IMG/VR virus record: IMGVR_UViG_3300046387_000245
Location: 1 to 29,685 of that record
Direction: 5' to 3' (one strand)
Source: a virus
Length of the DNA: 29,685 nt
Shown: positions 810 through 29,490 of the stretch, in pieces
Position numbering within the stretch: position 1 is the first letter of the stretch
Layout of the letters: every line of letters begins with the position of its first letter
Translations under genes and position numbers: made by a program
The notes under the pieces: model-generated
The model's database searches: none
The model's input: the letters and a program-made list of their open reading frames with translations, nothing else
Told to the model about the DNA's origin: nothing

Positions 810-824
810 CGTTACAGTGTAACG
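810..824. repeat. Boundary palindrome CGTTAC-AGT-GTAACG, copy 1
   Basis: Perfect dyad; with the A.T inside the centre the arms extend to 7 bp around a single base. On the plus strand it is flanked by AAAAC on the left and AT on the right. It is the promoter-proximal member of a tandem pair, 26 bp from copy 2. Read as minus-strand RNA it forms a short hairpin followed by GGTTTT, so it could also act as a weak terminator of late transcription. Confidence 0.9.
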
Positions 825-835
825 ATAGCCAAAAC

Positions 836-850
836 CGTTACAGTGTAACG
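836..850. repeat. Boundary palindrome CGTTAC-AGT-GTAACG, copy 2
   Basis: Identical to the copy at 810-824 and in the same orientation (AAAAC left flank, ATT right flank on the plus strand). Centre-to-centre spacing is 26 bp, about two and a half helical turns. Both lie between the terminase block and the early promoter. Confidence 0.9.
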
Positions 851-959
851 ATTCTGGCAGGCCGTGCGATTTCAAGTCTGACGCAAGGCAAGCCCGCCGT
901 GGCCTATCGGTAACTCGTGGCATAACTAGTGGCACACACCCCCCAAAAATACACAGGCC

Positions 960-999
960 AGCGCATGGGCGGCAAGGGGGGAGCGGACGCTCATGCGCT
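960..999. repeat. GC-rich inverted repeat AGCGCATG...CATGCGCT
   Basis: Eight-base perfect arms (960-967 and 992-999), extendable by several pairs with one wobble, enclose a purine-rich loop containing a run of six G on the plus strand. It lies just after the small membrane gene on the minus strand. A T run follows only ~10 nt later, so it is a poor intrinsic terminator. It could be an RNA end structure or a genome-end signal. Function is not determined. Confidence 0.45.
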
Positions 1000-1041
1000 C
1001 ACATGTACCCTTTCAGATTTTTTCACCAAAATACTTTTGCA

Positions 1042-1290
1042 CTACTGCAAGTACCTCAGTCCCCACACAAGTAAAAGGAACAGTGCCGCAGTGTTCACAA
1101 CAATCAAAGCCCTGTCTTTCCACATAAAGGCAACTATAAGCCACATCAGTGTACCTACAGAACTCAGAGCGATATCTAACAGGACAGAGAACCCAGAGGC
1201 TCTTAGAGACAAAGCAATAAGGATGAGGATGGATGCTACCCACTTGATGTACCAGTCTATAGTACCCGTAGGAGTTACTTTAGTAGTCAT
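1042..1290 (-). CDS. Small multi-pass membrane protein
   Basis: An 82-residue protein with a polar N-terminus (MTTKVTPTGTIDWYIKW) and three predicted hydrophobic segments at about 16-30, 35-55 and 62-80. AGG lies 6 nt upstream of the ATG. It follows the large terminase gene by about 65 bp and is the last gene before the regulatory region, the place where T7 carries the small membrane gene 19.5. A role in the host envelope during late infection or lysis is possible. I do not recognise a named family. Antisense and alternate frames across it are shadows. Confidence 0.7.
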   Translation of the reverse strand: MTTKVTPTGTIDWYIKWVASILILIALSLRASGFSVLLDIALSSVGTLMWLIVAFMWKDRALIVVNTAALFLLLVWGLRYLQ

Positions 1291-1332
1291 TAGTAACCTA
1301 TAGATATCTTCTTCAACTATACCCCCCTCTAT

Positions 1333-1350
1333 TCCTATAATGTCCTATAA
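1333..1350 (-). repeat. Tandem TTATAGGA direct repeat ahead of membrane gene
   Basis: On the minus strand TTATAGGA occurs twice with a 10-bp period (1350-1343, 1340-1333), just after the terminase stop. Related CTATAG and GTATAG strings occur at both sides, at about 1361-1356 and again within the ribosome binding region near 1303-1298. The helical-turn spacing and -10-like sequence could mark a local promoter or protein-binding site, but no -35 was found. Confidence 0.35.
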
Positions 1351-1355
1351 GGTGT

Positions 1356-3047
1356 CTATAGAGAGAACCATTGTGTTGAGTTGTCGTGTATGTCGTCCTT
1401 TTTCAGGAGTGTGTTGGTTCTGAACTTCTCCAGTTCTCTGTCGAATAACTCGTCCCGTCTTGCTTTCATCTCCGTGTCGGCTGTCGATGCCATTTGTTCG
1501 ACCCAGTAGCCTACAGCCATCGCAAGGGCATCTAGGCGGTCATCGTGAGCCAATGCACCCCTCTCGCGTGTACAGCGGGTCATCTGGTACGCCAGCGTGT
1601 ACTTAGGGGCTTTCTCGCCGCTGTAGTGCTGTACAGAGTTCCAGTCGTTCTCAATAACCTTGGGGTCAATGATAAGACGATGCTGGTTCATTACAGGCTC
1701 TAGCGTATCAATGATGCGTAGTTCCTTCTGTTTGCTGTGGCGCACTTCGCTTGTACTTACAGGGTATATCGTGGTAAGATGAGGCTTAAAGAGTTCGGTA
1801 AACATCCCGTCACCGAAGTTGCTCTCAATGATTACCTCGTTCACTTTGTTTCGCTTGGCGATGTGCGCTAGACGGTCAAGGGTTTCCTTTGAGTAACCTC
1901 CAGTCACGCCACCAGCGTCAGAGACATACAGGTTGCCGTTGAGCATCTTTACGACTGCGTAGGCTGTTTCGTCAGCACCGCGACCTGACGGGTCAATAGA
2001 CATAACTGACCCAGAGTACTCCAGCCACTCCCCGATGTTCTCTAGGGGGCTGTAGTAGCGGTCACCAGCCAGACCAAGGTTTGGTAGGTCTTTGAGTTCC
2101 CGTGCGGGGTCACGACCCCATACGACTTTCTCAGGGGCTTTGTCGTTATCCAACGGGCTAATAATCAGGTCGTTGAGTTTGAGAGGATACTTGTCGGCAT
2201 CAGACAGGCTGGTGTCGAGCATAAACTGGAGAGAGAAGCCAGAACGACCATAGGACAACTCACGTTCCATTAGGTCATCTTCAGTAAACCTCGTAGGGTC
2301 TACAGGGAGGCCCGTACAGGCCTCTCCGTGCTTGTCTAGGTGGTCACCTACCAGAGGAGCTAAACGCCCCTCGTAGCGGCCTCTGAGGTCTTCTGAGGGG
2401 TATCTGGCAGGCCATATACGAACTTGGTATCCACGGTTGGGAAGTTCCTCATATAGGGACATCTCAGTCTGGGGTGTACCAAGGTAGATGATGCGTCCAT
2501 CAGGTTTGAGGACAGCGTCAAATTCCTTTACGGATTCCGACAGCTTGTCGCGCATAGATTGTGTGGCTGAGTTGTTAGGAATCTCTACGTCATCAGCTAC
2601 GATGATGTCGGCGCGAGAGCCAGCGAGTTGACCCGTGATACCCACGGACTTGACGCTAGGGCTGTGCGAAGCTTGCGCTGGGCCAACATCAAAGCTGATT
2701 TTAGACATCCGCTGGTCTTCGCGGGGCTTCAGGTGTTGCAGTATCGGCATCTCGTTGATGAGTCGTTGCGTAAAGATACTGAAGTCATCTGACCGTGTCT
2801 TACTAGCGGATACCACCAGTATCTTCAGTTCTGGATTTGTCAGAAGCTGGTGAACGACAAACGCACTCGTGATGTAGGATTTGCCTACGCCACGAAAGGC
2901 TTCGATAACCAGACGGCGTGGGCCGTTCTGGAGATACTCTGCCATGTCATATTGGACGGGTGTCGGGTTAGGTAGGTTTAGATGTTTCCAAGCTAGGAAC
3001 AGGAAGTTCCGAAAGTCAGTTAGTTTGGATGAGGTCGTCTTCGTCAA
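1356..3047 (-). CDS. terL: Large terminase subunit (T7 gp19-like)
   Basis: The ATP-driven DNA packaging motor and headful/terminus nuclease acting at the portal. The 563-residue product has a Walker A at 51-57 (FRGVGKS) and a Walker B-like segment at 147-154 (ADIIVADD). The RNase H-like nuclease has acidic residues at D352 (SIDPSGRGADE), E408 (VIIESN) and D502/D503 (HDDRLDALAM). Length and motif order fit T7 gp19 (586 aa). The start is a TTG at 3047, overlapping the small terminase gene by 32 bp. The first in-frame ATG is codon 35 and would trim the N-terminal part of the ATPase domain, so TTG is preferred. The gene belongs to the HNH, small terminase, large terminase unit and overlaps its upstream partner, which suggests coupled translation. 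Confidence 0.95.
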   Translation of the reverse strand: MTKTTSSKLTDFRNFLFLAWKHLNLPNPTPVQYDMAEYLQNGPRRLVIEAFRGVGKSYITSAFVVHQLLTNPELKILVVSASKTRSDDFSIFTQRLINEMPILQHLKPREDQRMSKISFDVGPAQASHSPSVKSVGITGQLAGSRADIIVADDVEIPNNSATQSMRDKLSESVKEFDAVLKPDGRIIYLGTPQTEMSLYEELPNRGYQVRIWPARYPSEDLRGRYEGRLAPLVGDHLDKHGEACTGLPVDPTRFTEDDLMERELSYGRSGFSLQFMLDTSLSDADKYPLKLNDLIISPLDNDKAPEKVVWGRDPARELKDLPNLGLAGDRYYSPLENIGEWLEYSGSVMSIDPSGRGADETAYAVVKMLNGNLYVSDAGGVTGGYSKETLDRLAHIAKRNKVNEVIIESNFGDGMFTELFKPHLTTIYPVSTSEVRHSKQKELRIIDTLEPVMNQHRLIIDPKVIENDWNSVQHYSGEKAPKYTLAYQMTRCTRERGALAHDDRLDALAMAVGYWVEQMASTADTEMKARRDELFDRELEKFRTNTLLKKDDIHDNSTQWFSL

Positions 3048-3243
3048 AAGGCATCTCTTCTAGGAGTTGGACTAGGGTACTGTTGTTTGTCGGGATAGCT
3101 TCGATACCGTTGTCCTTGAGGAACTTTGCGGCGACACTCAGGTCTGCGGCTTTCGCTTCGCCAGACTTGATTTTAAACAGCAGGTCACTTGCGACTGCCT
3201 CGTGTAGCTCGTTGAGTATTTCAGATACTTTCTTATCAGCCAT
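3016..3243 (-). CDS. terS: Small terminase subunit (T7 gp18-like)
   Basis: The DNA-recognition subunit of the packaging terminase. From ATG at 3243 it gives 75 residues, MADKKVSEILNELHEAVASD..., with the helical pattern NELHEAVA..L...IKSGEA.AADL.VA..FLKDNGI that I associate with gp18 of T7-like phages (89 aa), and an acidic C-terminus. The frame stays open upstream to 3336, but that would overlap the HNH gene by about 100 bp. The 3243 start overlaps it by only 8 bp. It overlaps the large terminase gene at its other end. Confidence 0.85.
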   Translation of the reverse strand: MADKKVSEILNELHEAVASDLLFKIKSGEAKAADLSVAAKFLKDNGIEAIPTNNSTLVQLLEEMPFDEDDLIQTN

Positions 3244-3475
3244 AGCTTCTAGGTTTCCTTGCTCTGTTAGCACTTCTGGGTTTGACGGAGAGGTTTGCAG
3301 GGTCGTTGTTTCTTGCGTTGAAATCACGATGGTCAACGTCCTTGTTGTCGCCCTTGGCTACTCGTCCTTGTTTTACCATATATCGTCTAGCCGCGTTGCG
3401 CCCTGCCCTGCGTTTCTTCTGTTCTGGACGGGCGTGAAACTGACGATACTCTGATTTGTAATCTCTGTTTGACAT
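3236..3475 (-). CDS. HNH-family small nuclease-like protein
   Basis: A 79-residue, strongly basic protein. Residues 46-70 (DVDHRDFNARNNDPANLSV, then the polar S..N) resemble the D-H...N...NL core of HNH endonucleases. It lies directly upstream of the terminase pair, as HNH proteins do in many tailed phages, where they assist terminase cutting (family knowledge, not shown here). The start at 3475 uses AAGG 8 nt upstream, and this AAGG lies in the centre of the boundary palindrome at 3479-3493. At this size it is a minimal HNH domain, and activity is uncertain. Confidence 0.75.
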   Translation of the reverse strand: MSNRDYKSEYRQFHARPEQKKRRAGRNAARRYMVKQGRVAKGDNKDVDHRDFNARNNDPANLSVKPRSANRARKPRSYG

Positions 3476-3478
3476 AAT

Positions 3479-3493
3479 CGTTACCTTGTAACG
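3479..3493. repeat. Boundary palindrome, AAG-centre variant over the HNH start
   Basis: Perfect 6-bp arms; on the minus strand the centre reads AAG. The AAGG formed by centre plus arm is the only good Shine-Dalgarno for the ATG at 3475, so in mRNA the ribosome site is partly folded into a hairpin. It is part of a 27-bp block (3473-3499) identical to 29470-29496 before the DNA polymerase gene. It separates the HNH/terminase unit from the lysis genes. Confidence 0.9.
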
Positions 3494-3496
3494 GTT

Positions 3497-3856
3497 TTAT
3501 TTGCGGAGCTTGGAGACACTACGAACACCAAAAGCCGCACCCACGGCGGCAAGCCATGCCGCGATGTACCACTCAGGAACGCTCTCATCTAACGCAATAA
3601 ATCCTGCTTTGACCCTTACGGCCCATTCGTCACCAAGAAAGACCAAGACCATCGGCACAGCCAAGAGAACCCCGTAGAACTCATCAAGCCACCCGTTGTT
3701 GGCGTTGGATGCCCATTGGTTCTCCCAGTTGACTTCGCCAGCCGCTACTTTCTTGGCAATCTCGCCTTTAGCTTTCTGCTCGTCTGCTTTGCGTTCCATG
3801 TAGCTTCCTGCCACATTGCCAACCAGACCAATCGCGTTTGATAAAAGGCTCATCAT
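3497..3856 (-). CDS. Holin-like protein (GTA holin 3TM type)
   Basis: A 119-residue protein. The basic amphipathic N-terminus ends in KADEQKAKGEIAKK, followed by the WENQWASNANNGWLDE block and two clear membrane segments at about 62-75 (YGVLLAVPMVLVFLG) and 96-111 (YIAAWLAAVGAAFGV). The WE...W.DE block before membrane helices is typical of the holin family first described from gene-transfer-agent release (PF11351, from memory). It would make inner-membrane lesions at lysis. Start is ATG at 3856 (a second ATG is at 3853), sharing an ATGA overlap with the preceding holin-like gene, so both are probably translated together. Confidence 0.7.
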   Translation of the reverse strand: MMSLLSNAIGLVGNVAGSYMERKADEQKAKGEIAKKVAAGEVNWENQWASNANNGWLDEFYGVLLAVPMVLVFLGDEWAVRVKAGFIALDESVPEWYIAAWLAAVGAAFGVRSVSKLRK

Positions 3857-4023
3857 GTTTTTATTCTTTCTATTAGTTTCTTGATTGTTTCGGTTTCGTA
3901 AATACGAATACAGACCCAGAGCAGTGAAGCGAGGGCTGTAATAGAAGGTAGTATTTCCACAAAAGCTCCTGCGGTCACGCCTAGTGCGCTTAAATCTATT
4001 ATTGTTTTGTCATCTGGGTACAC
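3853..4023 (-). CDS. Small class II holin-like protein (gp17.5-like), GTG start
   Basis: A protein of 56 residues when started at GTG 4023, which has GGAG 7 nt upstream. A longer ATG version from 4101 would overlap the preceding gene by 65 bp and lacks a comparable ribosome site. The middle has the pattern ALGVTAGAFVEILPSITALASLLWVCIRIYET followed by a charged tail, the arrangement of T7 gp17.5-type holins in marine podoviruses: one or two membrane helices, then an amphipathic basic end. It overlaps the next holin-like gene by ATGA. Two holin-like genes in tandem suggest a holin pair, or a holin plus modulator. Confidence 0.65.
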   Translation of the reverse strand: MYPDDKTIIDLSALGVTAGAFVEILPSITALASLLWVCIRIYETETIKKLIERIKT

Positions 4024-4036
4024 TTGATTGCTCCAA

Positions 4037-4504
4037 TCAGAGAAGAAACAAAGCCATAAGAACTGTGATAAGCAGGACGCACCCGCCAACCACACTTCCA
4101 ACTATTGTTGCGGCTTCTACAAACTCTTCCTTTTTCTTTCTCGCTAACGCCTTTTGCTGACGTATTTGCTCTTTTTCTTCAGAAATTCGTTTGGCTCGTT
4201 CATTTACAATCTGTCTCCATGTGCCGTATCCGAAACGATTGTCGATTAGTATTGACATTTCTTCGAGTTTTTCCTGTGCCAATTTCGCGTCTATAACTGA
4301 GTGGGCGGCATCTTTAGTTTGCCCAATAAGCGACTTACCGCCGTATCTTTCTTTTTGAACCTGTTTCTCTCCCGCAAACAGACCGTCCAGTGCGCCAGCG
4401 ATTTGGCCTATGTCATTCACCGTATTGATGTTTGATTTGATGAACTCCACACTTTTTTGCACAAGCGCAATACCTGCAAGAGTGGATGAGATTGGTTCAA
4501 CCAT
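4037..4504 (-). CDS. Tail-anchored coiled-coil protein, unknown function
   Basis: A 155-residue protein. The N-terminal half contains hydrophobic helices (PISSTLAGIALVQKSVEFI). The centre, about 60-130, is highly charged and helical (RISEEKEQIRQQKALARKKKEEF). A single strong membrane segment ends the protein (about 134-155, IVGSVVGGCVLLITVLMALFLL). It starts at ATG 4504 with AAGG upstream. Position just before the holin-like genes suggests a lysis accessory or envelope-associated virion protein, but I recognise no family and the topology (C-terminal anchor) differs from classical Rz spanins. Confidence 0.75.
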   Translation of the reverse strand: MVEPISSTLAGIALVQKSVEFIKSNINTVNDIGQIAGALDGLFAGEKQVQKERYGGKSLIGQTKDAAHSVIDAKLAQEKLEEMSILIDNRFGYGTWRQIVNERAKRISEEKEQIRQQKALARKKKEEFVEAATIVGSVVGGCVLLITVLMALFLL

Positions 4505-4617
4505 TTGCCTTTTTTCCTTGTTTCGTAAATGCGTTTTTCCAACTCAACTGTCTCCCAAAAACGCTTATCAATATCAGTAAGGTCTAGTACCTGTGACGGA
4601 CGTATGCTTTTACGCAC
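4417..4617 (-). CDS. Possible small overlapping protein, 66 aa
   Basis: An open frame starting at ATG 4617. It overlaps the end of the gene at 4584-5408 by 34 bp and the start of the tail-anchored gene by 88 bp. It is the only frame that fills the gap 4505-4583. Residues 5-40 (IRPSQVLDLTDIDKRFWET...) have natural-looking composition, while the last ~25 residues, read across the next gene, look less convincing. It may be a real small gene or a leader frame. No family recognised. Confidence 0.35.
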   Translation of the reverse strand: MRKSIRPSQVLDLTDIDKRFWETVELEKRIYETRKKGKWLNQSHPLLQVLRLCKKVWSSSNQTSIR

Positions 4618-5408: not shown

Positions 5409-5412
5409 GAAC

Positions 5413-6048: not shown

Positions 6049-8665
6049 TTTTCAACTCCTCCAATTCAACGCGCATTTCTTTGATTTGCGTTTGTTGCTC
6101 TTTAATTGCCTCAATTAAAATCGGCACGAGCTTGTCATAGGCCACAGTTTTATAAGGGTCGCCATCAGGGGATGTGTGTGCGCTACCATGAACTGCCTCT
6201 GGAGCCACGGCCTCGACCTCATGTGCCAAAACCCCAAAATCGTAGGTATTTGGTCTGCCTACAATTTCAGGCATGTCCTTCCACTTAAATCGGACACCAT
6301 TAAGTTTTTGCACCTTCTCAAGGCTGTTTGTCAGGGGTGAGACTTCCTCTTTCAGACGCTCATCGGAGTATGCTGTCACATTACCCGCCGCGACCATATC
6401 TCCGGTAGGCATGTGGACATACCATCTCCATGACGTTGCCGACCAACCGCCAACGCCGAGATACGCATCGGCGCGTAGGTGGAAGTTCGTGGCATAATGA
6501 CCAGCGCAATGAAGCGATAAACTTGCAAGGTTGCTATCGCCCGTACCCCCATCATTCTGTAGTTCAAGCGTCCCAAGGCCACTTGTCGAGTGGTCGCCAC
6601 GCGCTCTAAAAGAACCAGCATGATTGCCTTCGGGAGTTATGAACCTGCTTACACCGCTTTGCTGAACTGTGAGCTGGGCTGTAGTAATGTCGTTGGCATC
6701 GCTTCGCAAAAACTGAGTGCTATCCAAGCCGTCAAGCGTAGCCGCGTTGCCACCATCGGCTGACGTAATAAACCCGCTGTCATTTGTTAGGTCTGAAACA
6801 TTGGATGGGATGGTGGGTGTGCCAGTTAACGAACTATAAGCTCCATCAAAAGACGATGTGCCTGCACCAATCGCTGTCCGAACTTCTGCGCCAGTAATTC
6901 CTGTAGCTAACGCTGGTGTACCAGAGTTGTCCTCAATCGCTGGAGCGGCAGGAATTGTAGGTTTGTTTGAAAGGTCGTTATAGTTACCACTAAAGGTGGT
7001 TATCTGATTCCACTGTGTGCCGTTATAGAACTTGAGTACACTGGCAGTTGTATTGAAGAACAAATCGCCAGCATCATTGGATGACGATGGGTCGGACGAA
7101 CCAACACGATAACGGTCAGCAAAGCTGTTAACCCCTGTGACATTACTTGCAACAGTGGATACGTTAGAAGAAATGCCAGCCACTGTATTAATGTTTGTTG
7201 AGTCTCCAGCTACAGAGTTGATGTTTGCACTGTTAGCCGCAACAGCATTGATGTTGGCACTGTTGGTTGCCACTGAGTTGACATTGGCTATAGCCCCAGC
7301 GACTGTTCCGATATCAGTAGCATCCCCTGCCACTGTGGTTACATCAGAGCTTATATTAGCGACTGCTCCAACATTGGTTACGTTGGCGGCTACGGTATTG
7401 ATATTGGTTACCGCGCCAGCAACAGCGGTGATATTAGAAGCGTTGTTTGCCACGTTGGTGATGTTAGTAGAGTTACTAGCCGCGCTTGTTACGTCAGAGC
7501 TAATGCCAGCTACTGTGGACACGTTGGCACTAATGCCGTTGACAGTAGTGATTGCGCCAATGTTACCGCCTACATCCTGAATATCAGAGATGTTAGAAGC
7601 GACAGTGCTTATGTTATTGGTCGGGCTAATCTGTCCAGCGACATTGTTTATGTTGGCGGTGTTACTTCCAACGCTTGATACTGCGCTGGATATCCCTGAC
7701 ACGTTTCCGATTTCTGTAGATATACCAGCGACAGTGCCGATATTGTTTGTCGGTGATATCTGACCAGCAACCGTGTTCACATTTGTAATAGCACCACCAG
7801 TAGAATTCACGTTGTTGATGTTTGTGCCAACTGTGTTGATGTTAGCGACAGCCCCTGCCACCGTGTCGATTTCTGATGTCTGTTCATTCAGGTCGTTGGC
7901 GACAGTTTCAATTTCTGACACTGTTTCTTGTAAGTCAGAAGCCACCGTTTGAACTGCGGCAATATCTGTGGCAACGGCGGCAATGTTCGAGGAAGCGTTT
8001 GCAACCGTGGTGACGTTAGCGGCAATACCTGCGACAGTCGAAATGTCGGCGTTGTTACCTGCAACTGTGTTTATGTTGGCGTTGTTACCCGCCACCGTGT
8101 TGATGTTTGTGGCATTACCTGCAACAGAGTTGACGTTAGCGATTGCACCCGCAACCGTGTTGATGCTCGCAATGTTAGTTCCCGTTGTATCAATGTTTGT
8201 AATGTTAGCGGGAGTAAGGTAGGTGGTCGTTAGCCAGTTCTTCGTTACTGCATCCTGTGCATCTACAGGGTCTGCCAAGTTCACAATACGTCTTGCGGTA
8301 CTGCTTTTTGTAGCATCAAACTGGTTAGCACTATTCAGAGACAAAGCCCTGTCTGCGGTATCCACAGCTTCCTGAGAAATAAAGAACAACTGGTTGGCGT
8401 TCTTATCAAGGTCAGCCTCTGACAAGATAGCCCCGTCACTGAAGTCAACTAGGCGACTTGCCTTGGGTGTATCCCGTTCAATCAGAATAGATGTTTGAGA
8501 TGCAGGAGCAGAGTTGAACGTGAGGGTTTGTCCATTAACGCTGAAAGCTGTTGTCGCCGTTCCGTTGAGGAACGCTTTGACATCTGCCGTAGCAAGGTAG
8601 TTAAACGTAATGGTGTAGGCTGTGGTTGAGCCATCACCTGTGTATTCAATAAATGAGTTTGCCAT
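6032..8665 (-). CDS. Tail fibre protein with T7 gp17 N-terminus and S74 chaperone
   Basis: An 877-residue host-recognition fibre. Residues 1-150 (MANSFIEYTGDGSTTAYTI..., LSEADLDKNANQLFF) match the tail-binding N-terminal domain of T7 gp17. Residues ~155-513 are a long array of ~10-residue repeats of the NINTVAG type. About 515-560 is a DPSSSNDAGDLFFNT...LKFYNGTQW module, followed by Gly/Pro-containing segments. The end is an S74 intramolecular chaperone: YSDERLK with the predicted catalytic Ser near 767, then VLAHEVEAVAPEAV and a C-terminal coiled coil. Members of this family trimerise the fibre and then cut themselves off. AGGT with an AATAATAA spacer precedes the ATG. The gene is much longer than T7 gp17 (553 aa), mainly because of the repeats. 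Confidence 0.92.
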   Translation of the reverse strand: MANSFIEYTGDGSTTAYTITFNYLATADVKAFLNGTATTAFSVNGQTLTFNSAPASQTSILIERDTPKASRLVDFSDGAILSEADLDKNANQLFFISQEAVDTADRALSLNSANQFDATKSSTARRIVNLADPVDAQDAVTKNWLTTTYLTPANITNIDTTGTNIASINTVAGAIANVNSVAGNATNINTVAGNNANINTVAGNNADISTVAGIAANVTTVANASSNIAAVATDIAAVQTVASDLQETVSEIETVANDLNEQTSEIDTVAGAVANINTVGTNINNVNSTGGAITNVNTVAGQISPTNNIGTVAGISTEIGNVSGISSAVSSVGSNTANINNVAGQISPTNNISTVASNISDIQDVGGNIGAITTVNGISANVSTVAGISSDVTSAASNSTNITNVANNASNITAVAGAVTNINTVAANVTNVGAVANISSDVTTVAGDATDIGTVAGAIANVNSVATNSANINAVAANSANINSVAGDSTNINTVAGISSNVSTVASNVTGVNSFADRYRVGSSDPSSSNDAGDLFFNTTASVLKFYNGTQWNQITTFSGNYNDLSNKPTIPAAPAIEDNSGTPALATGITGAEVRTAIGAGTSSFDGAYSSLTGTPTIPSNVSDLTNDSGFITSADGGNAATLDGLDSTQFLRSDANDITTAQLTVQQSGVSRFITPEGNHAGSFRARGDHSTSGLGTLELQNDGGTGDSNLASLSLHCAGHYATNFHLRADAYLGVGGWSATSWRWYVHMPTGDMVAAGNVTAYSDERLKEEVSPLTNSLEKVQKLNGVRFKWKDMPEIVGRPNTYDFGVLAHEVEAVAPEAVHGSAHTSPDGDPYKTVAYDKLVPILIEAIKEQQTQIKEMRVELEELKNGSAK
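7125..8220 (-). repeat. Coding repeat array in the tail fibre shaft
   Basis: About 1.1 kb of degenerate ~30-bp units encoding roughly ten residues each, with the core (N)I/V-N/S/T-T/S-VA-G/A and variable linkers, for example NINTVAGNNA and ISSDVTTVAG. At DNA level the units share gttgatgttggc-like strings on the plus strand. A ten-residue beta-type repeat fits a long fibrous shaft. Similar units could recombine and change shaft length. Confidence 0.85.
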
Positions 8666-12119: not shown

Positions 12120-13946
12120 TTATTCACCTAACCAATTAGCGATTTCATTATGAACGGAAGTCACGGTTATTGTGGTATCTGGGTTCACGTTTTTTTCTGC
12201 CTCAACAAAAGCAATCATAAGTTTGCCAAGGTCAGTCTCATGAATTTTTTGTTTTCTTTTTCCTGCGTCTTGGGCGTACCTATACAGTGAGTAGATGTCT
12301 TGTCTCTTATATTTAGATGTGTCCTCCCAAAACTTCGGGGTTTCTGTTTTTGTTACAGGCTTGGCTCTGTTGATAATGTCAGCCATCGTACTCTGATGCC
12401 AATCAAAGAACGCCGCTTTACCTTCTGGTGTTGATATATCGTTTTGACCCCGCCAAGCTTGAAACTTCACATTGTATTCATTTGTGAACTTCTCAGATTG
12501 CTGAACAGCGTCTGGGAGGAAGCCCCCTGAAAAAGGATTCTTGTATAGGTCTTTGATTTGGGCGTAAGGAGCAGTTGCCCCTGTATCTGTAAATAAGTTC
12601 TTCAACACAGAACTGTCTTTTGCATCCTTACGAAGCCGCCTTATGTCTGGGGTAGACAGTCGGTCACGAAATTCATCAATCGTTCTGTTAATATCAGCCT
12701 CACTTGCAAGGCCGCTAAAAATCATATCGTCAATCACCGCAAGCGTAGATGGGTCTGTTTTGATATCTATGCTGTCGTAGTCAGAGCCAAATGTTCTAAG
12801 GGAATCATGCTCGACACGGTCAATAATGAACAGTCGCCGCATTGCACTTCCCAGTGTCATTGTGCGACCATCTACCTCTATTAGTGCCTTTGACCGACTA
12901 TTTCTTATTTCCACGCTAATCTCAGAATTAGCTTCAAGAGCGTCTACAATACCTTGTCTGATTGCCCTAGTCTCAAGCTCGTCAGAGGCTTTTTGTTGTT
13001 TTAGAACATCATCATCTGCGGCATCTTCAGCGGCCTCAAACTGCTGACGAAGCCTTTCAATGTTGAGCCGACCTGTTGTGGTTTCGCCGTAAGTTCCAAA
13101 ACGGTTCTTAATATTAGCCATAACGTCAAGAACGGTTTCCCAATCGCTCAAGCCGTTATCAGCCATGTTAGAACCAATGGCTGTTAGCCCGTTTACTGTA
13201 GAGTCAATAATAGTTGATGCTTTACCGCCTGTAGCTATGCGATGCTCAACAAGAGCATTGATGCTTCCAGACAACGTATCGAAGTTGACACCACCCTCAT
13301 CGCTTATAGCCCCATCGAATGCCCTGCTAATGTCTTTTTCATATAACGCTTCACGCTCTTCTGTGACTTTGGCTATCTGTTTTTCGTTATAGTTCTGCCG
13401 CCGTTGGGCAATGACACCGTCAATTCGTCCATAGTAATTATCTATAAGAAGGTCATCGTCAAACGCATCAAGACCATTTTGTAGCGTGTAGTTTCTAACG
13501 TATTCATCGGCAAACTGGTCGTAGTCAAAATTGGGATTTTCACTTTGTTCTGCAAAGGCAATACCAAAGTCAGTTGCCATGCTGTCAGCTTTGTCCTCAA
13601 GATAGGAACGAGCATAACCTTCCATCCAGAACTCAGATTGTCGCGGGTCACCGCTTTCTATTTGTTTTATGTCAGCTTTGCGCTCTTCTTCTGTGGCATT
13701 CCTGTAGCGGGTAATGCCCTCTTTGATTCCCTCTTCACGCTGTTGTTCTCGTTTTTCCTTAAAATACCCACCAATAACTGGTGAAAGCTGAGAAAGTCCT
13801 CTCTCTATTTCCCGCGCACGGGTGCTTTCTGTTACTGCCGCTTGTCTCGTAAAGGTATCTACTGGACTAGCAACAACAGCCGTATCCTGTTCTAACGCTC
13901 GCAAGCGTCCAAGGCTCTGAGAGAGCCTCTGAGGTTTTTTAGCCAT
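12120..13946 (-). CDS. Internal virion protein (T7 gp15-like by position)
   Basis: A 608-residue, soluble, highly charged and mainly helical protein with an N-terminal basic region (MAKKPQRLSQSLGRLRALEQ) and a long Glu/Arg-rich segment at ~60-110 (YFKEKREQQREEGIKEG). No membrane helices. It lies between gp14-like and gp16-like genes, matching T7 gp15, the core protein that forms the periplasmic tunnel and binds DNA during ejection. Sequence similarity is not obvious by eye, so the assignment rests on order, size and composition. Start at 13946 has AGGATAATAAGA before ATG. The boundary palindrome at 13963-13977 lies just upstream. Confidence 0.75.
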   Translation of the reverse strand: MAKKPQRLSQSLGRLRALEQDTAVVASPVDTFTRQAAVTESTRAREIERGLSQLSPVIGGYFKEKREQQREEGIKEGITRYRNATEEERKADIKQIESGDPRQSEFWMEGYARSYLEDKADSMATDFGIAFAEQSENPNFDYDQFADEYVRNYTLQNGLDAFDDDLLIDNYYGRIDGVIAQRRQNYNEKQIAKVTEEREALYEKDISRAFDGAISDEGGVNFDTLSGSINALVEHRIATGGKASTIIDSTVNGLTAIGSNMADNGLSDWETVLDVMANIKNRFGTYGETTTGRLNIERLRQQFEAAEDAADDDVLKQQKASDELETRAIRQGIVDALEANSEISVEIRNSRSKALIEVDGRTMTLGSAMRRLFIIDRVEHDSLRTFGSDYDSIDIKTDPSTLAVIDDMIFSGLASEADINRTIDEFRDRLSTPDIRRLRKDAKDSSVLKNLFTDTGATAPYAQIKDLYKNPFSGGFLPDAVQQSEKFTNEYNVKFQAWRGQNDISTPEGKAAFFDWHQSTMADIINRAKPVTKTETPKFWEDTSKYKRQDIYSLYRYAQDAGKRKQKIHETDLGKLMIAFVEAEKNVNPDTTITVTSVHNEIANWLGE

Positions 13947-13962: not shown

Positions 13963-13977
13963 CGTTACAATGTAACG
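13963..13977. repeat. Boundary palindrome CGTTAC-AAT-GTAACG
   Basis: Perfect dyad in the 32-bp gap between the stop of the gp14-like gene (13979) and the start of the gp15-like gene (13946). The minus-strand flanks match the consensus (AACC before, ATT after). It splits the internal virion protein set, so it may set different expression of gp15/gp16/fibre relative to the upstream genes. Confidence 0.9.
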
Positions 13978-19643: not shown

Positions 19644-19680
19644 AAAAAAAGGGGGACACCCTCAAAGAGAGCATCCCCCT
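19644..19680 (-). terminator. Intrinsic terminator after the major capsid gene
   Basis: Minus-strand RNA folds as GGGGGA...UCCCCC with an inner helix that continues through G-U and C-G pairs to about 13 bp around a UUU loop, followed directly by seven U (19650-19644). It lies 36 bp past the capsid stop, as T7 Tphi follows gene 10. Partial termination here would give more capsid mRNA than downstream tail mRNA. An additional small hairpin (GAATGG/CCATTC, 19691-19708) and a degenerate boundary palindrome abut it. Confidence 0.88.
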
Positions 19681-19691
19681 ACACTGTAACG
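19677..19691. repeat. Degenerate boundary palindrome fused to the terminator
   Basis: CCCTAC-ACT-GTAACG on the plus strand matches 13 of 15 positions of the boundary palindrome. The left arm is altered where it runs into the C-rich terminator stem. It keeps the right arm and centre exactly. Confidence 0.6.
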
Positions 19692-19715: not shown

Positions 19716-20825
19716 TTATACACTCAGGAGTGCAATAGAGCAAGCAGGACGTAGGATATTATGTCCCATTGCATACTTAGCAACCATCAGAGTTCCCTGA
19801 CGATTGATTTGGTATTCGCTTTCAACACCAAGGTCGAGAAGCTTCACGGTTGCTACGGCATCTTTAGTCATTACCAGACCTTTGACTTTAGCGGCAACGT
19901 CAACGAGGTTGACACCGTCAGTCGTAGCGTTGGTGATGTCGTAAGCAGTCGTGCGGCCTGAACCAGCAGTGTTGGCAATCGGACGATTACCTTTAGATTG
20001 ACCTTTAGAACCGCCAGAGGTTTCGACAAGGTCAGACACAACAAGATTGTTGCTCATGTATACAGGCATACCAGCGATTTGCGGTACAACAGCAGAGGCT
20101 ACAGAGCCTGTGCCACCGAAGTCGCGGTTCATGTATACGAGCTTGTTACCATCAGTTACGTCTAACAGAGCGTAGTACTGGTCTGGGCCAAGGACAACGA
20201 AAGCACCTTCTTGCGGTACGTTTTTCTTGTCCATTTCTTTACGAGCGTCAAAGATTGACTTAGCCAATTTAGATGGGTCAGTCACATCACCAGAAGCCGC
20301 ACCGATAGTAATGTTATCAGTAAAGTCTTCTTCGGAGAACGCTGTGTAGTCCTGAACGAGAGCCGCCGCACGAGTGGCATTAGTAGCCAGCGAAGCTTTC
20401 AGAGCTTGGCGCAGGATGTTCTTGTCGGCCTCAGTAGCCAACGCGATACCTGCTTCTTTCGAGTACGTTGAACGTACATCGTAGTGGTTGATGGCTTCAT
20501 CAATGCTGGCAATAAACTGAGAGCTAATCAGCAAATCGTCAATCGTGACGATACGCTCAGAAGCGCGTACCTGACCGCCCGTGATTTCATTTCCAGGGGT
20601 GTGGTACTCAGCAGTTGTACGGCCCAACATTGGGAACGAAGCTGATTTGCCTTTGCTGATGGTACGAGTACGCATCAGAGGCATCATGATGTTTTTGGCC
20701 TCAAAGGAAGTCAGAACCTCACCTGCATATAATTTCAGGAAGAGAGAACGGACATCACCTGAGAGGTTTGTTTGACCTAGACGGGATACGTCATAGGCTG
20801 GATTGGATGCACCTTGCATTGCCAT
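19716..20825 (-). CDS. Major capsid protein (T7 gp10-like)
   Basis: A 369-residue HK97-fold shell protein. Family features are MAMQGASNPAYDVSRLGQTN near the N-terminus, LYAGEVLTSFEAKNIMMPLMRTRTISKGKSASFP (E-loop region) and TGNxxx-type beta segments. Start is ATG 20825, with AGGTGA 5 nt upstream; an in-frame GTG at 20834 would lie inside that ribosome site. Length is close to T7 gp10A (345 aa). It is preceded by the scaffold gene and a 195-bp leader, and followed by a strong terminator, which suggests its own highly expressed transcript. No slippery site giving a gp10B-like extension was seen. Confidence 0.93.
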   Translation of the reverse strand: MAMQGASNPAYDVSRLGQTNLSGDVRSLFLKLYAGEVLTSFEAKNIMMPLMRTRTISKGKSASFPMLGRTTAEYHTPGNEITGGQVRASERIVTIDDLLISSQFIASIDEAINHYDVRSTYSKEAGIALATEADKNILRQALKASLATNATRAAALVQDYTAFSEEDFTDNITIGAASGDVTDPSKLAKSIFDARKEMDKKNVPQEGAFVVLGPDQYYALLDVTDGNKLVYMNRDFGGTGSVASAVVPQIAGMPVYMSNNLVVSDLVETSGGSKGQSKGNRPIANTAGSGRTTAYDITNATTDGVNLVDVAAKVKGLVMTKDAVATVKLLDLGVESEYQINRQGTLMVAKYAMGHNILRPACSIALLSV

Positions 20826-21020
20826 TTTTATCACCTCATATGATATTCTAGTGTTGATGTAGGTTTCGTTACATTGTAACGATTAAGTGTTCCTGCATTC
20901 ACTACTCACTTCACCAAGGATTGTCCCGCGCACGGGGTCAAAGGTTCTGCTTTGGCTTCAGACAAGTTGCGGCAGGGGGCAAGAAGCCCCCCACCGACTG
21001 ACACTTGAAATGGAGACAGC
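20826..21020 (-). promoter_or_regulatory. Capsid leader region with GC hairpin and palindrome
   Basis: A 195-bp gap between scaffold and capsid genes, long for this compact genome. On the minus strand it holds a stable hairpin GGGGGC-UUCUU-GCCCCC (about 20992-20975) without a following U run, a small CCCG/CGGG hairpin near 20930, a boundary palindrome (20867-20881) and a strong ribosome site. The hairpin could protect a processed 5' end of capsid mRNA. No convincing sigma70 promoter was found, so the capsid promoter, if any, is unlike the host consensus. Confidence 0.55.
20867..20881. repeat. Boundary palindrome CGTTAC-ATT-GTAACG before capsid
   Basis: Perfect dyad 41 bp upstream of the capsid ATG, inside the leader. 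On the plus strand the right flank ATT fits the consensus, while the left flank (TTT instead of AAC) does not. Downstream on the minus strand a TAGAAT hexamer lies 17 bp from the palindrome's edge, so the palindrome would overlap the -35 of any promoter using it. Confidence 0.9.
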
Positions 21021-23416: not shown

Positions 23417-23767
23417 TTAACTTGGTACGTTTACTGACGCGCCTTGCGCTGGGATATTTAGTCCTATGTTTTCGCCTTGGACAATCTGACTTCTAAATCT
23501 TCGTTTGCCTCTGCGTTTACGCCTTGCAAGGGCATTTAAGCTATCTGCAATGGCCTCTGCTTCTTTTTGGTCAGTAATACGGCCTTTGTACATAGTAGAG
23601 CCGCCAGAGCCGCCAGAGCCGCTACCATAATCTATGTCTCCGGCATTACCGCCGAAGCCGCCAAAGTTGCCGCCCATACTTCCGAAGCCGCCCCCACCGA
23701 AGCCGCCTCCGCCTCCACCGCCGCCGAAGCCTCCGCCTCCGCCGCCGCCGCCGCCACCGTCACACAT
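23417..23767 (-). CDS. Gly-rich gp7.3-like small virion protein
   Basis: A 116-residue protein. Residues 2-55 are almost all Gly with a few Phe, Asn and Ser. Then a charged helix (DQKEAEAIADSLNAL), a basic ARRKRRGKRRFR motif at ~81-93 and a short GENIGLNIP end. It sits directly before the portal gene. T7 genes 6.7 and 7.3 lie in the same place and their products end in a Lys/Arg-rich motif plus a Gly-rich INI tail, so I infer a gp7.3/6.7-type virion or tail assembly protein. It is paired with the Pro-rich gene next to it, which shares the basic motif. The repetitive GGN codons could drift in length. Confidence 0.6.
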   Translation of the reverse strand: MCDGGGGGGGGGGFGGGGGGGGFGGGGFGSMGGNFGGFGGNAGDIDYGSGSGGSGGSTMYKGRITDQKEAEAIADSLNALARRKRRGKRRFRSQIVQGENIGLNIPAQGASVNVPS

Positions 23768-23770
23768 AAC

Positions 23771-24212: not shown

Positions 24213-24239
24213 GATGTTTTTCCGATAATGTCCAAAAAC

Positions 24240-24254
24240 CGTTACACTGTAACG
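24240..24254. repeat. Boundary palindrome overlapping the RNR stop codon
   Basis: CGTTAC-ACT-GTAACG. The minus-strand arms encode the last three residues of the ribonucleotide reductase and its TAA. Minus-strand RNA then reads GGTTTTT, giving an 8-bp hairpin plus U run, the best terminator-like version of the repeat. It lies between DNA metabolism and the virion block. Confidence 0.9.
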
Positions 24255-26146: not shown

Positions 26147-26525
26147 TTTCGTCTTTTTTCGTCTTTATATATTGGTGGAACAGGACGGCGTAGTTGATGA
26201 TGTCAATCAAAGTGTCCTCGACTGACTCATCCTTCACCGCCAACTCATTGTTTTCGGTGAACGAAGCCAACCGACTAAACTTGTCGGTCATGCGAACCAG
26301 AAAGCCCTTTTCTGTAGAGGTGATACCCATATCTTCAGTCCGCCGAAAGTTGGCGAAGATGTCTGCGTCACCTGCGTAGTCTTGGTTTTTCTTGTCCATA
26401 AGAACTCGCGCCTTGGCACACATGGCTTCATGTGCAACCAGAAGGTTTTGGCGTTTGCTATTAGTGCTTTCCCGCATCTCTTTCATGGAGCGACCCATGT
26501 AGTCGTGGTAACTTTCACGAGCCAT
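26136..26525 (-). CDS. DUF1599 / MazG-like nucleotide-modification-associated protein
   Basis: A 129-residue protein. LMDKKNQDYAGDADIFANFRRTEDMG (42-67), FLVRMTDKFSRLASF (75-89) and VKDESVEDTLIDIINYAVL (97-115) reproduce the K-N-x-D-Y...N-F...R-M-x-D-K...D-E-S-x-x-D-T-x-x-D pattern of the DUF1599 family (nucleotide modification associated domain 1), an all-alpha, MazG-related group. It may act on nucleotides or their pool; activity is not established. GGAG lies 7 nt before ATG 26525. It overlaps both neighbours by 11 bp, so it is co-translated with the exonuclease and reductase. Confidence 0.8.
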   Translation of the reverse strand: MARESYHDYMGRSMKEMRESTNSKRQNLLVAHEAMCAKARVLMDKKNQDYAGDADIFANFRRTEDMGITSTEKGFLVRMTDKFSRLASFTENNELAVKDESVEDTLIDIINYAVLFHQYIKTKKDENEK

Positions 26526-27297
26526 GTGCCATCTCCTTCGTGTAACCTTCGTCTGCGGTCAAAGGCGGCTCCCATAGCTTGACGTTGCCGAAGGAGACAT
26601 TCACATCACCAGCACGAAGCAGGTAAGCCATACGAGCATTCATCAGTGCGTCTTCACTGGGCTGTTCAGCTTTGGCATAAGCACCAAGAACGGCCTGCCA
26701 CATATCAAGTGATGTTCTGCATCCAGCAAGGATGCGTTCTGCTTTAACTGGCCCAACGCCACGACAGCCTTTGTAATTGTCCGCCGTATCGCCCGTCAGT
26801 ACTTGGGTATAGAAGTTCTTGAGGGCTTGTTGTTCTGATACCTCAATAACCTCACCTTTGTTGTAGTGGTAGCCAGCAATCGTTTGCAGGTCTTTATCGT
26901 CCGAAACGATGATTGTATCTTCGTCAAAGCTTTGTGTAGCCATGATTCCAAGAACGTCATCCGCCTCAAGCGTAGGCCATATAACTGCTAGGTATTTGGT
27001 TTTGAAGAAGTCCTGTGCAACTCCCAAGCCCATAGGCTTTCGGGTGTTGGCACGGTTGGCTTTGTACTCAGGATTTAGTTCCTTTCTGAAGTTCTTACGG
27101 TCAGACAAGGCGATGATTACCTCTTCCGTTTTGAACTTATCTTTCAAAGCCTCAATGCTCTTCGTCAGTTCAGCCATGACCTCTGCTTCGCTGGTGTGCA
27201 TAGTCCAGAGGTCTTCGTCCCATTTTATTGGGTGTTCGCAAGCCGCCGCTGTGCGGTATGCGATGATGTCTCCATCAACAAGTAGTCGTACATTCAT
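26515..27297 (-). CDS. 5'-3' exonuclease (T7 gp6-like, FEN family)
   Basis: A 260-residue nuclease that removes RNA primers and degrades DNA. Metal-binding acidic residues are visible at D8/D10 (LLVDGDIIAYR), E111-D114 (LEADDVLG), D133-D136 (VSDDKD) and D170/D173 (TGDTADN). They are followed by the helix-three-turn-helix DNA-binding loop GCRGVGPVKAERIL (177-190). Length is close to T7 gp6 (300 aa). It starts in an ATGA overlap with the endonuclease gene. Confidence 0.92.
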   Translation of the reverse strand: MNVRLLVDGDIIAYRTAAACEHPIKWDEDLWTMHTSEAEVMAELTKSIEALKDKFKTEEVIIALSDRKNFRKELNPEYKANRANTRKPMGLGVAQDFFKTKYLAVIWPTLEADDVLGIMATQSFDEDTIIVSDDKDLQTIAGYHYNKGEVIEVSEQQALKNFYTQVLTGDTADNYKGCRGVGPVKAERILAGCRTSLDMWQAVLGAYAKAEQPSEDALMNARMAYLLRAGDVNVSFGNVKLWEPPLTADEGYTKEMAHGS

Positions 27298-27737
27298 GTG
27301 TCAGTTTCCTCAGTGGATAGGTCAGCGTACAGTTTGACCGTATCCGTACTAAACAGCTTCGACAGGTTCACGAGGAACATGCGGGACGCATTATGGTCAC
27401 CGCCGTTAACCACGCGATGGTGGTCTAGCTGTTCAACTATTTTCTTCAGGTTATCAACGCTGAACACCAAGGTGCAAAAAACGTCATCACCCAAAGCAAG
27501 ATTATGAAACCAATAGTCGGCTTCGGTTGCTTTGATACCACTGGGCTTTCCCCAGCTTTGAAACTCGATGCAGATGTTTCCAGTTTTTGACCACTGGTCA
27601 CGCTCTGTTTTGACCTCGATTTTTTTGTTCTGAAGCATGTCCGCAATGCGGTCTTCATGAAGGTGTCCGTAAGCAAGGTCTAAATCAAATTTCTTTCGGT
27701 CTTTCTTAGTGGGTTTCAGCCCAGTTTTTTCCGACAT
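27294..27737 (-). CDS. Endonuclease, PD-(D/E)xK-like (T7 gp3 position)
   Basis: A 147-residue protein from ATG 27737 (GGAGAG just upstream). The open frame extends to 27803, but that start would overlap the polymerase gene by 98 bp rather than 32. KIEVKTERDQWSKTGNICIEFQSWGKPSGI carries the E-V-K core (acidic residue, then ExK) plus a G...E helix upstream (GHLHEDRIAD), typical of PD-(D/E)xK nucleases. The place between polymerase and exonuclease is that of the T7 gene 3 Holliday-junction endonuclease, and a junction-resolving or host-DNA-cutting role is inferred. Confidence 0.78.
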   Translation of the reverse strand: MSEKTGLKPTKKDRKKFDLDLAYGHLHEDRIADMLQNKKIEVKTERDQWSKTGNICIEFQSWGKPSGIKATEADYWFHNLALGDDVFCTLVFSVDNLKKIVEQLDHHRVVNGGDHNASRMFLVNLSKLFSTDTVKLYADLSTEETDT

Positions 27738-29472
27738 TATACTCTCCATCAAGTCGTAGTCGGAAGTTGTAGGCTTCTCCCGCGTCCTTGATGGCTTCCA
27801 CACACAAAGCTCCTACGCGCTCTGTGATGCTCTTTTTGGCTATAATCTGAAGCTCATCATGAACAAATGCCGCTTGGTAATAGTCCTCTCCAAGCACAAA
27901 GCCTTCAGCCTGCATCTTGCGATGGAACTCAACGAGCCACCGCTTGCAGATGATTGCACCCGTGCTTTGAAGAAGCGTATTCAAGCTTGCGTGTTTATGT
28001 CGGACAGGCACTTTTCGCCCATCCAACACTTTTAGGTAGCCCCTGTTTTCTGCCGCCTTGCTTACGTTGTCACGAAGCTTGGCAAGCGCAGGGGTCTTTT
28101 TTAGGAACTGGGCTTTGAGCCTTCGTCCCGCTTTAGCATCTTTACCAACGATACTGCCGATTTTTTCATCACCTCCACCGTAGAGAAACCCGTAGATGAA
28201 AGTCTTTGCAGTCGCTCGTGAAGGTAAGCCAGCGGCTTCCATGTTGGTTGTATGTATGTCTCCCGTAAGTATCTCATCGGCATACGCTCCCCCATCGTAT
28301 AGAGCCATATAATGAGCCAGAGCGCGTAGCTCCAGACCGCTAACATCACAGCCGATAATACGATAGCCATCAGGAGCGATAAAAAGACTCCGACAAGCAC
28401 TACCGTAAGTAGCCCCTGTAGAAGGTATTTGACCAGTGTTGGGATTTGAATGCGTACAACGTGACGTATGCGTTCCCATGTGATTAACGCGCCCATGTAT
28501 TCGTCCTTTCTTAACGAGCTTGAGCCAAGCTTGCTTACCTTCCCCAAGCTGTCCCAGTCGTTTCTGGAGCATCAGGTATTCAGATAGAAGTTTTGCCTCT
28601 GGGTACTCCAAGGCAGAGAGAACAGTCTCGTCCACCTTTGCAAGCCCTGTCTCAGTGAACTCATCAGGTTGCCAGTCGTATCGCTCTCGAAGCGCACGGG
28701 CTATGTGTTCACGGGAACAGGGGTTGAAAACAGTTTCTTTGACTTTGATGAAAGGCTCACCCTTCACATAGCCAAGTTTCTTATTGTTGACCTTGGGTAT
28801 GAACTCTGTCTCTTCACGCCACGGCAGAAAGACTTCCTGTAGTTCAGCCTCAATCTCTGTGCGGCGGTTAGACAACTCGCCATAGAGCTTCCAGCCAGCC
28901 TGCTCATCAAAGGGAAACCCAAGGTACTCCTGCACCAGCAGATGGTGATGCACCTCATGCTCTAACTTGATGGCATCCTCGCTGTACTTCTTGCTCTCAA
29001 TCTTCAAGAACAGGTGTTTGTTTACCACGACATCTTGGCGGCAGTACTCAAGCATCTGCTCAGTGAAAACATCAAAGTCTTCTTGCTCACCAAACTCGCC
29101 CTTCAATTCGCCAAGGCGGTAGCCCCATGCCTTGAGGCTATGTGAGCCAATCATCTTCGGTGGCAGTTTGCCTGCATGATAGAGCGTGAAGTCCTTGTTC
29201 TTAACGTCAGACCAAATGAGGCGGCACATCACTAACGTGTCACGCACCTCGCCTTCATAGTCGAAGTCAAAAATGTTTTTGAGGGCAGGTAAATCGTAGC
29301 CCATAATGTTATGCCCAATCAGGCAGTCAGCCTGTGCAAGGAGTTCAAGCCCTGCCTCAAGCTGGTCAGGACGGAACACATACTCTTCGTCTGTGTCCAC
29401 ATCCCGTGCGACAATGCAGTGTACAATGTCGGGTGTGAGGCTATTCGCCTCTATGTCAAATATCAGTCTCAT
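27706..29472 (-). CDS. Family A DNA polymerase (T7 gp5-like)
   Basis: A 588-residue replicative polymerase. Proofreading residues: D6/E8 (FDIEAN), D60 (GYDLPAL) and D147 (YCRQDVVV). Polymerase motif A D376 (GCDVSGLELR), motif B (AKTFIYGFLYGGGDEKI, with Y427) and motif C H538-D539-E540 (FVHDELQ). It is about 115 residues shorter than T7 gp5 (704). Between the thumb region (LQEVFLPW, ~211-218) and VFNPCSREHI (~248-257) only ~30 residues remain where T7 has ~70-80 including the thioredoxin-binding loop, so processivity is probably thioredoxin-independent. The ATG at 29472 takes its AAGG from the boundary palindrome. Confidence 0.96.
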   Translation of the reverse strand: MRLIFDIEANSLTPDIVHCIVARDVDTDEEYVFRPDQLEAGLELLAQADCLIGHNIMGYDLPALKNIFDFDYEGEVRDTLVMCRLIWSDVKNKDFTLYHAGKLPPKMIGSHSLKAWGYRLGELKGEFGEQEDFDVFTEQMLEYCRQDVVVNKHLFLKIESKKYSEDAIKLEHEVHHHLLVQEYLGFPFDEQAGWKLYGELSNRRTEIEAELQEVFLPWREETEFIPKVNNKKLGYVKGEPFIKVKETVFNPCSREHIARALRERYDWQPDEFTETGLAKVDETVLSALEYPEAKLLSEYLMLQKRLGQLGEGKQAWLKLVKKGRIHGRVNHMGTHTSRCTHSNPNTGQIPSTGATYGSACRSLFIAPDGYRIIGCDVSGLELRALAHYMALYDGGAYADEILTGDIHTTNMEAAGLPSRATAKTFIYGFLYGGGDEKIGSIVGKDAKAGRRLKAQFLKKTPALAKLRDNVSKAAENRGYLKVLDGRKVPVRHKHASLNTLLQSTGAIICKRWLVEFHRKMQAEGFVLGEDYYQAAFVHDELQIIAKKSITERVGALCVEAIKDAGEAYNFRLRLDGEYNVGKNWAETH

Positions 29473-29475
29473 AAT

Positions 29476-29490
29476 CGTTACCTTGTAACG
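29476..29490. repeat. Boundary palindrome, AAG-centre variant over the polymerase start
   Basis: Perfect arms, minus-strand centre AAG. Forms the only clear Shine-Dalgarno (AAGG, 8 nt before ATG) of the DNA polymerase gene. The 27-bp block 29470-29496 is identical to 3473-3499. A further partial copy GTTACAGTGT lies at 29497-29506 across the stop of the preceding gene. Confidence 0.9.

Follow-up and report, generated by a model that had tools for sequence, protein, structure and literature searches.

T7-like phages have long been treated as strictly lytic, and how a lysogen of a temperate T7-like phage stays silent is the question addressed here. It is raised by the IMG/VR virus record IMGVR_UViG_3300046387_000245, a stretch of 29,685 nucleotides that was analysed as a whole and is called the window below, in which an initial annotation had described a family of 15-bp palindromes. 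We propose that these palindromes are probably dispersed operators of a phage-encoded dimeric repressor, for which the sequence comparisons presented here point to the MarR-like protein phrog_9665 as the most likely candidate.

Palindromes of the window

All seven copies that had been reported with perfect arms are exact at their coordinates, and these seven CGTTACNNNGTAACG sites compare with a mean of 0.00 in 100 dinucleotide shuffles, which disposes of the objection that the pattern is no commoner than in shuffled DNA. The copies, none of them assigned to a strand, are:

810..824: palindrome CGTTACAGTGTAACG, upstream of the gene at 2-670; it pairs with the next copy, 26 bp from start to start
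836..850: palindrome CGTTACAGTGTAACG, second of the pair
3479..3493: palindrome reading CGTTACAAGGTAACG on the coding strand, with AAGG at 3484-3487 before the HNH gene (3236-3475)
13963..13977: palindrome CGTTACAATGTAACG, 17 nt before the start of the internal virion gene (12120-13946)
19677..19691: degenerate copy with 2 arm mismatches
20867..20881: palindrome CGTTACATTGTAACG, ahead of the major capsid gene at a distance of 33 nt; each of the four lineages has a site here
24240..24254: palindrome CGTTACACTGTAACG, overlapping the reductase gene at its end and immediately upstream of a phage-promoter-like sequence
29476..29490: palindrome reading CGTTACAAGGTAACG on the coding strand, with AAGG at 29481-29484 before the DNA polymerase gene

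According to our own gene list, non-coding positions account for 3.0% of the window, and 2.5% of its 15-mers are wholly non-coding. Six of the seven exact sites lie wholly in non-coding DNA (binomial P about 2e-9), and the seventh, at 24240, shares 13 bases with the end of the ribonucleotide reductase gene. The earlier statement that no copy lies inside a gene is thus correct for the window, but it does not extend to its relatives, which fall into four clades, A (including the window) to D: sites were found within the primase, DNA polymerase and reductase genes of clade B, the exonuclease gene of clade C and the DNA polymerase gene of clade D. The copy at 19677, which had been described as a 13/15 match, indeed carries two arm mismatches, and because it carries two to three in the five other clade-A contigs having that position, it is probably a decayed site or no site. 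In contrast, the 3479 site is identical in six of the six clade-A contigs having it (window counted), and the 810/836 pair is also present in contig G032. Five of the seven exact sites have the form CGTTACAnTGTAACG. The 3479 and 29476 copies are those with AAGG in their centre. The start codons of the HNH and DNA polymerase genes, respectively, follow 8 nt further on, and AAGG is the probable Shine-Dalgarno sequence of the next gene.

The element had been described as about 23 bp long and oriented. An extension beyond the core is present, but on both sides: the element is a symmetric site of ~21 bp, AAYCGTTACAnTGTAACGRTT. Among the 64 half-sites of 32 distinct clade-A sites, picked by a motif match with at most one mismatch, A is found at position -3 in 52, A at -2 in 58 and C or T at -1 in 58, and the look of an orientation arises because C and T vary at -1 beside the core. 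The A and T that flank the centre of the palindrome are complementary, the clade-A flanks are symmetric, and the centre base itself follows a preference that differs between clades, being A or T in 29 of 30 sites in clade B (looser in clade A, 24/32) and C or G in 28 of 28 sites in clade D (looser in clade C, 11/14).

Orthologous site pairs with at most three mismatches were used to compare arms with flanks; such pairs share genomes and are not independent. Differences per compared base amounted to 18/476 in the arms vs 242/2720 in the flanks for clade A, 3/532 vs 114/3040 for clade B, 0/126 vs 49/720 for clade C and 9/322 vs 172/1840 for clade D, which suggests that the arms are conserved beyond their flanks in all four clades. 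Together, the symmetry and the conservation pattern are those expected where a symmetric dimeric protein binds DNA.

The centre base has a history of its own. In clade B it differs in 12 of 38 orthologous pairs, at a flank divergence of 3.7%, and one centre-base change among the orthologous sites of clades A to D stands amid 80 identical flanking bases. In clades B, C and D, nine of the ten families with a changing centre swap it to its complement, which amounts to an inversion of the palindrome and is what template switching in a hairpin would give; in clade A, changes between C and A or T also occur.

Site sets of relatives and of bacterial assemblies

A motif version with 17 fixed bases gave 24 matching stretches in viral contigs, and a search for repeated palindromes covered 108 loci. 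Scans of the viral contigs with the clade-C and clade-A patterns yielded at least as many matches as were listed, and most of the matches listed are single copies. Relatives with 55-57% DNA polymerase identity carry different palindromes of the same build. In clade B the palindrome is TGTCTCAnTGAGACA, with 7 exact sites in G005, 15 in G007, 4 in G009 and 8 in G013, and in clade C it is GTTTACAnTGTAAAC, with 7 sites in G011, 6 in G012 and 7 in G014. The clade-D contigs (G035, 44.4 kb; G038; G041) have the same palindrome as clade C; G035 carries 10 sites and 3 more in its right end, and its ends are a 1.03-kb repeat of 93.8% identity with site copies within. On these comparisons, the site sequence appears to change as a whole set between lineages, from CGTTACAnTGTAACG in clade A to TGTCTCAnTGAGACA in clade B and GTTTACAnTGTAAAC in clades C and D. 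Two other matches were taken as chance, a single copy of the clade-A motif in a tail gene of G046 and TTTACCCnGGGTAAA in L046, with two copies in one contig, one of which is common to L047.

The positions of the sites recur. A site precedes the RNA polymerase gene in all four clades (at 292-294 nt in clade-A contigs G001, G002, G030 and G031, 528 nt in B, 144 nt in C and 449 nt in D), and the same holds for the capsid gene (33 nt in A, 131 nt in B, 134-135 nt in C and 138-139 nt in D). A further site lies before the gene for the single-stranded DNA-binding protein (SSB) in clades A and C and, in clade B, before the small gene preceding it, and several sites are within 35 nt of start codons. 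The sites before the internal virion gene and the HNH gene are extras of clade A. The idea that the palindromes mark module boundaries is thus borne out by the recurring sites before RNA polymerase, SSB and capsid genes, but not by the intragenic sites of the relatives, and it fares poorly in the late half of the genome: in the longer contigs (G009, G012, G014 and G035), no exact site was found from the capsid leader to the right end. An exception is the short clade-B contig L138, which has an exact palindrome at 3780-3794 in the late region, about 1.1 kb before the small terminase gene; G009 is 95.6% identical to L138 around the terminase genes and lacks an exact site at that place. In the longer contigs of clades B, C and D, sites are densest at the early-gene end and thin out towards the capsid gene. 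In G035, the gaps between sites grow broadly from left to right, from 70 to 9,244 bp, and the 10 sites all lie within the leftmost 52% (a post hoc P of about 1e-3 under a uniform distribution).

Outside the virus collection, an RNA polymerase alignment led to 116 candidate loci in bacterial and archaeal assemblies, of which the best 80 were used, and a MarR-like gene was found in 10 of the 80. A palindrome set was accepted at P<1e-7, with tandem repeats set aside; this P applies to a single seed, and as many seeds were tried, only the strongest sets are relied on. Non-tandem sets were present in 3 of the 10 loci with a MarR-like gene (L426, L427 and L466) vs 1 of the 70 without (L502). In Chelatococcus sambhunathii, 23 of the 24 GTGCAGTnACTGCAC sites of the whole assembly (at most one mismatch) are on a 40.3-kb phage contig (reversed-pattern control, 2). 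In the gammaproteobacterial metagenome-assembled genome with locus L466 all 8 of 8 CCGAAGNNNNCTTCGG sites are on the phage contig (control, 0), one of them 15 bp before its MarR gene, and in the Rhodobiaceae metagenome-assembled genome with locus L426 this applies to 8 of 8 TTAACCNNGGTTAA sites (control, 1). These three contigs (33-40 kb) could be free phage or prophage. The C. sambhunathii locus L427, contig 17 of strain DSM 18167, is T7-like, and its 23 near-exact sites are spread fairly evenly over its whole length. Pooled over the three assemblies, the phage contigs hold 39 of the 40 sites. Because of this and because the site sequence switches as a set between lineages, we favour a phage-encoded regulator, and the operator set of such a regulator, one of several readings offered in the initial annotation, is the one best supported.

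Candidate repressor and rival explanations

The window covers part of a temperate T7-like phage and lacks its early region. It had been described as a phage without a visible RNA polymerase, and SIO1-like phages had been suggested for comparison. Protein searches with the terminase and the DNA polymerase gave no support for a SIO1/cobavirus origin, which we dropped, and the nearest isolates are T7-like: Roseobacter CRP phages, Rhizobium phages and Pseudomonas phage LUZ100. RNA polymerase seems to be lacking because the window is truncated. Three IMG/VR contigs are nearly identical to it (G001, 99.97% over 6,064 bp; G004, 99.97% over 23.3 kb; G032, 99.91% over 6.5 kb), and upstream of the DNA polymerase gene, outside the window, G001 encodes a MarR-like gene, an integrase and a single-subunit, T7-like RNA polymerase of the Autographiviridae type. 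The genes of the window that serve as landmarks are:

27706..29472, minus strand: DNA polymerase (T7-like)
19716..20834, minus strand: major capsid protein
1356..3047, minus strand: large terminase subunit (T7-like)
3236..3475, minus strand: small protein resembling HNH endonucleases; by the tests made, not the factor that binds the sites

Two further genes have repetitive stretches, a tail fibre gene (7150-8199), in which a 48-nt repeat occurs 12 times with a spacing that is mostly a multiple of 30, and a short protein (23417-23767) with a long glycine run at its start (MCDGGGGGGGGGG).

The MarR-like winged-helix protein belongs to phrog_9665 (E 2e-28) and its gene lies just upstream of the integrase gene. 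Its match to Pfam MarR_2 is below the family cut-off. However, the AlphaFold2 model has a pLDDT of 89.3 and its top Foldseek matches are MarR, MexR and MepR (E about 1e-4, TM score about 0.6), suggesting that the protein has the winged-helix MarR fold. A phrog_9665 member was found in 9 of 16 records, namely G001, G002, G030 and G031 of clade A, all three clade-C contigs, and G035 and G038 of clade D; the search gave none in the window, in G003, in the four clade-B contigs or in G041, which starts inside the RNA polymerase gene.

Several observations weigh against this protein as the repressor of the sites. Clade B has no phrog_9665 match in four of four contigs, G009 being one that starts at the primase gene and could not show it, despite up to 15 exact sites (G007), and tblastn found no integrase or MarR match in G005, G007 and G013, fragments that reach upstream of the RNA polymerase gene. 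Clade-A G003 (L112/L113) has an integrase and eight exact sites, and neither a MarR gene nor a site before RNA polymerase was found in it; it may be a natural derivative in which control by the repressor has been lost. No palindrome set was found in four virus loci with a MarR gene (L050, L069, L080 and L093), in seven of the ten MarR-bearing prophage loci (one of which is just 7.5 kb) or, as a dispersed set, in eight of nine isolates, all with MarR. Conversely, L502 passes the threshold with a set that is mostly in coding DNA and has no MarR gene that we could find. One comparison would link the protein to the operator, as the recognition-helix regions of one clade-C and one clade-D MarR protein, which share the operator, are identical at 18 of 21 positions vs 32 of 88 outside, but this region was picked after seeing the alignment and represents a single contrast.

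The sole isolate to pass is Rhizobium phage RHEph21 (L134), with five sites (at most two mismatches), four of them at gene boundaries. These TATCCACnnGTGGATA-like palindromes are at boundaries 8381, 13866, 24420 and 37113, with one more in the DNA polymerase gene, and their core is present in LUZ100 and L470 too. CRP-114 passed the threshold through tandem collagen repeats alone. The TTAGGTTGCACC repeats of CRP-113, -125, -114 and -361 were rejected as operators, since they are mostly non-palindromic, and were taken as phage promoters; a TTAGGTTGCACC-like motif in the Roseobacter CRP phages of loci L109, L132, L111 and L133, found before and after the RNA polymerase gene and elsewhere, is likely a phage promoter.

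An unlikely alternative that nevertheless deserves serious consideration is that the operators belong to a different phage-encoded regulator and not to the MarR-like protein, either a factor common to clades A to D or a clade-specific one. It would explain why sites persist in clade B and in G003, where no MarR gene was found. Clade B encodes a 118-aa protein that is unrelated to MarR, resembles HTH_23 (E 2.6e-5, narrowly missing the Pfam cut-off) and could substitute for MarR: its gene follows a Pyr_excise-like gene near the MarR position of clade A and has a one-mismatch site near its own start. The AlphaFold model of this protein was too poor for use (pLDDT 47). However, among the genomes searched it is confined to clade B, the sets in the three bacterial assemblies accompany MarR, and few genes are specific to clades A to D. 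When these clades were compared with seven isolates and two other relatives, three genes were present in the former and absent from the latter: the 79-aa HNH gene, a virion protein gene and a 60-aa open reading frame, the clade-A counterpart of which does match isolates. The HNH endonuclease was rejected as the site-binding factor, as a related gene is present in CRP-118, where no palindrome set was found; the HNH gene adjoins the small terminase gene, and its product is 57-73% conserved among clades A, B and C.

That the palindromes act as RNA, be it as hairpin terminators, processing sites or hairpins hiding a ribosome-binding site, is very unlikely. Hairpins of -5.1 to -7.7 kcal/mol are predicted for five examples, two copies put AAGG in the loop before a start codon, and GTTTT follows three of the seven exact sites (810, 836 and 24240) in gene direction. 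Intrinsic terminators combine a GC-rich hairpin with a T-run, however, and the remaining four sites lack such a run in gene direction; a terminator scan of positions 1-4000, covering three of the seven sites, gave a score to just one of them, the 3479 copy, and this on the non-coding strand. In addition, no compensatory arm changes were seen among orthologous site copies with up to three mismatches, which indicates a constraint on sequence and not on pairing, and the complementary A and T at the centre as well as the centre-base preference have no evident role in a 3-nt loop. Due to the missing T-runs, the intragenic sites of clades B, C and D and the lack of compensatory changes, we set this explanation aside. 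We give even less credence to DNA-organisation sites, used in partition, packaging, replication origin or condensation by a phage protein without a direct role in transcription. The fairly even spread over the Chelatococcus phage (23 sites in 40 kb) and the copies inside the 1-kb repeated ends of G035 would suit such a role, but no partition gene was recognised among the proteins scanned, and the sites recur before RNA polymerase, SSB and capsid genes, several of them close to start codons. Operators of a captured host regulator are the least credible of all, as nearly every assembly site is on the phage contig, even if the lineages may differ in host.

Promoters, proposed mechanism and known systems

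In clade A, a T7-type promoter-like sequence, TGGACAYTATAG, was recognised, by motif only, before the RNA polymerase and SSB genes, and two candidates are present in the window:

24223..24234, minus strand: candidate phage promoter TGGACATTATCG, with 2 mismatches to TGGACACTATAG, which is found before RNA polymerase in relatives
1335..1346, minus strand: candidate phage promoter AGGACATTATAG, after the terminase gene, with 2 mismatches

The palindrome before the SSB gene of clade A begins about a dozen bases past the presumed start, the one before the RNA polymerase gene is some 60 bases upstream of the promoter-like sequence, and the one after the reductase gene abuts the upstream side of such a sequence. 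No promoter was recognised at the remaining sites. We propose that, when the repressor is present, during lysogeny or early in infection, its dimers would occupy the sites. At promoter-proximal sites, such as the one before SSB, a bound dimer would block initiation or escape, whereas at leader, intragenic and promoter-less sites it would act as a roadblock to host or phage RNA polymerase. The repressor-operator pair may have diversified between lineages in the manner of immunity specificities. In T7-like phages, transcription draws much of the genome into the cell. One might therefore speculate, as a bold extension that we consider rather unlikely, that the repressor of a lysogen stops the polymerase on the array from reeling in a superinfecting genome, so that immunity would cover the entry of DNA in addition to gene expression, and that such arrays, each with a specificity of its own, were built in several T7-like lineages. 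As the operator set can be read from each genome, defined repressor-operator pairs would become accessible, one of them in the named strain C. sambhunathii DSM 18167.

Searches of open-licence PubMed Central gave no account of palindromic operators spread over the whole genome of T7-like phages, and the main text of a paper on Roseobacter Autographiviridae contains neither the term MarR nor palindrom- (PMC11092137). The closest proposal concerns the temperate T7-like phages: a passage of the LUZ100 paper proposes MarR control of the RNA polymerase region, citing Boeckman et al. 2022, and also reports that stable lysogens of LUZ100 could not be confirmed, with integration cited for phages Pasto and HTVC019P (PMC10134795). 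Our candidate is of the same protein family, likewise beside an integrase gene, and would also repress the RNA polymerase region. However, the proposal in that passage concerns sites flanking the RNA polymerase promoter, whereas up to 15 or more sites are found here genome-wide, including those at capsid and replication genes. If our proposal is true, a phage's own repressor can switch off much of its genome.

In expression vectors, a lac operator placed just downstream of a T7 promoter blocks transcription. The clade-A site before SSB, where a dimer would bind a few bases past a T7-type start, resembles this arrangement, but it is natural, is repeated across the genome and would be read by a different protein family.

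By analogy, the stoperators of Cluster A mycobacteriophages would be the nearest working parallel. These are described as asymmetric 13-bp sites, mostly in one orientation, that are bound by a monomeric repressor, the L5/Bxb1 immunity repressor (PMC6550527, PMC9283540). Systems of this type halt the elongation of transcripts and confer immunity to superinfection. With them, the palindromes appear to share many dispersed copies of one short repressor-type site, a phage-specific motif that diversifies between relatives, and a repressor-type gene in the phage. In contrast to the stoperators as described there, the sites studied here are symmetric palindromes of 15-16 bp without such asymmetry, they lie in T7-like phages that encode an RNA polymerase of their own, and the candidate repressor is MarR-like. 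If true, our proposal would carry the principle of the stoperators over to another kind of phage, with repressors that are dimeric and read palindromes.

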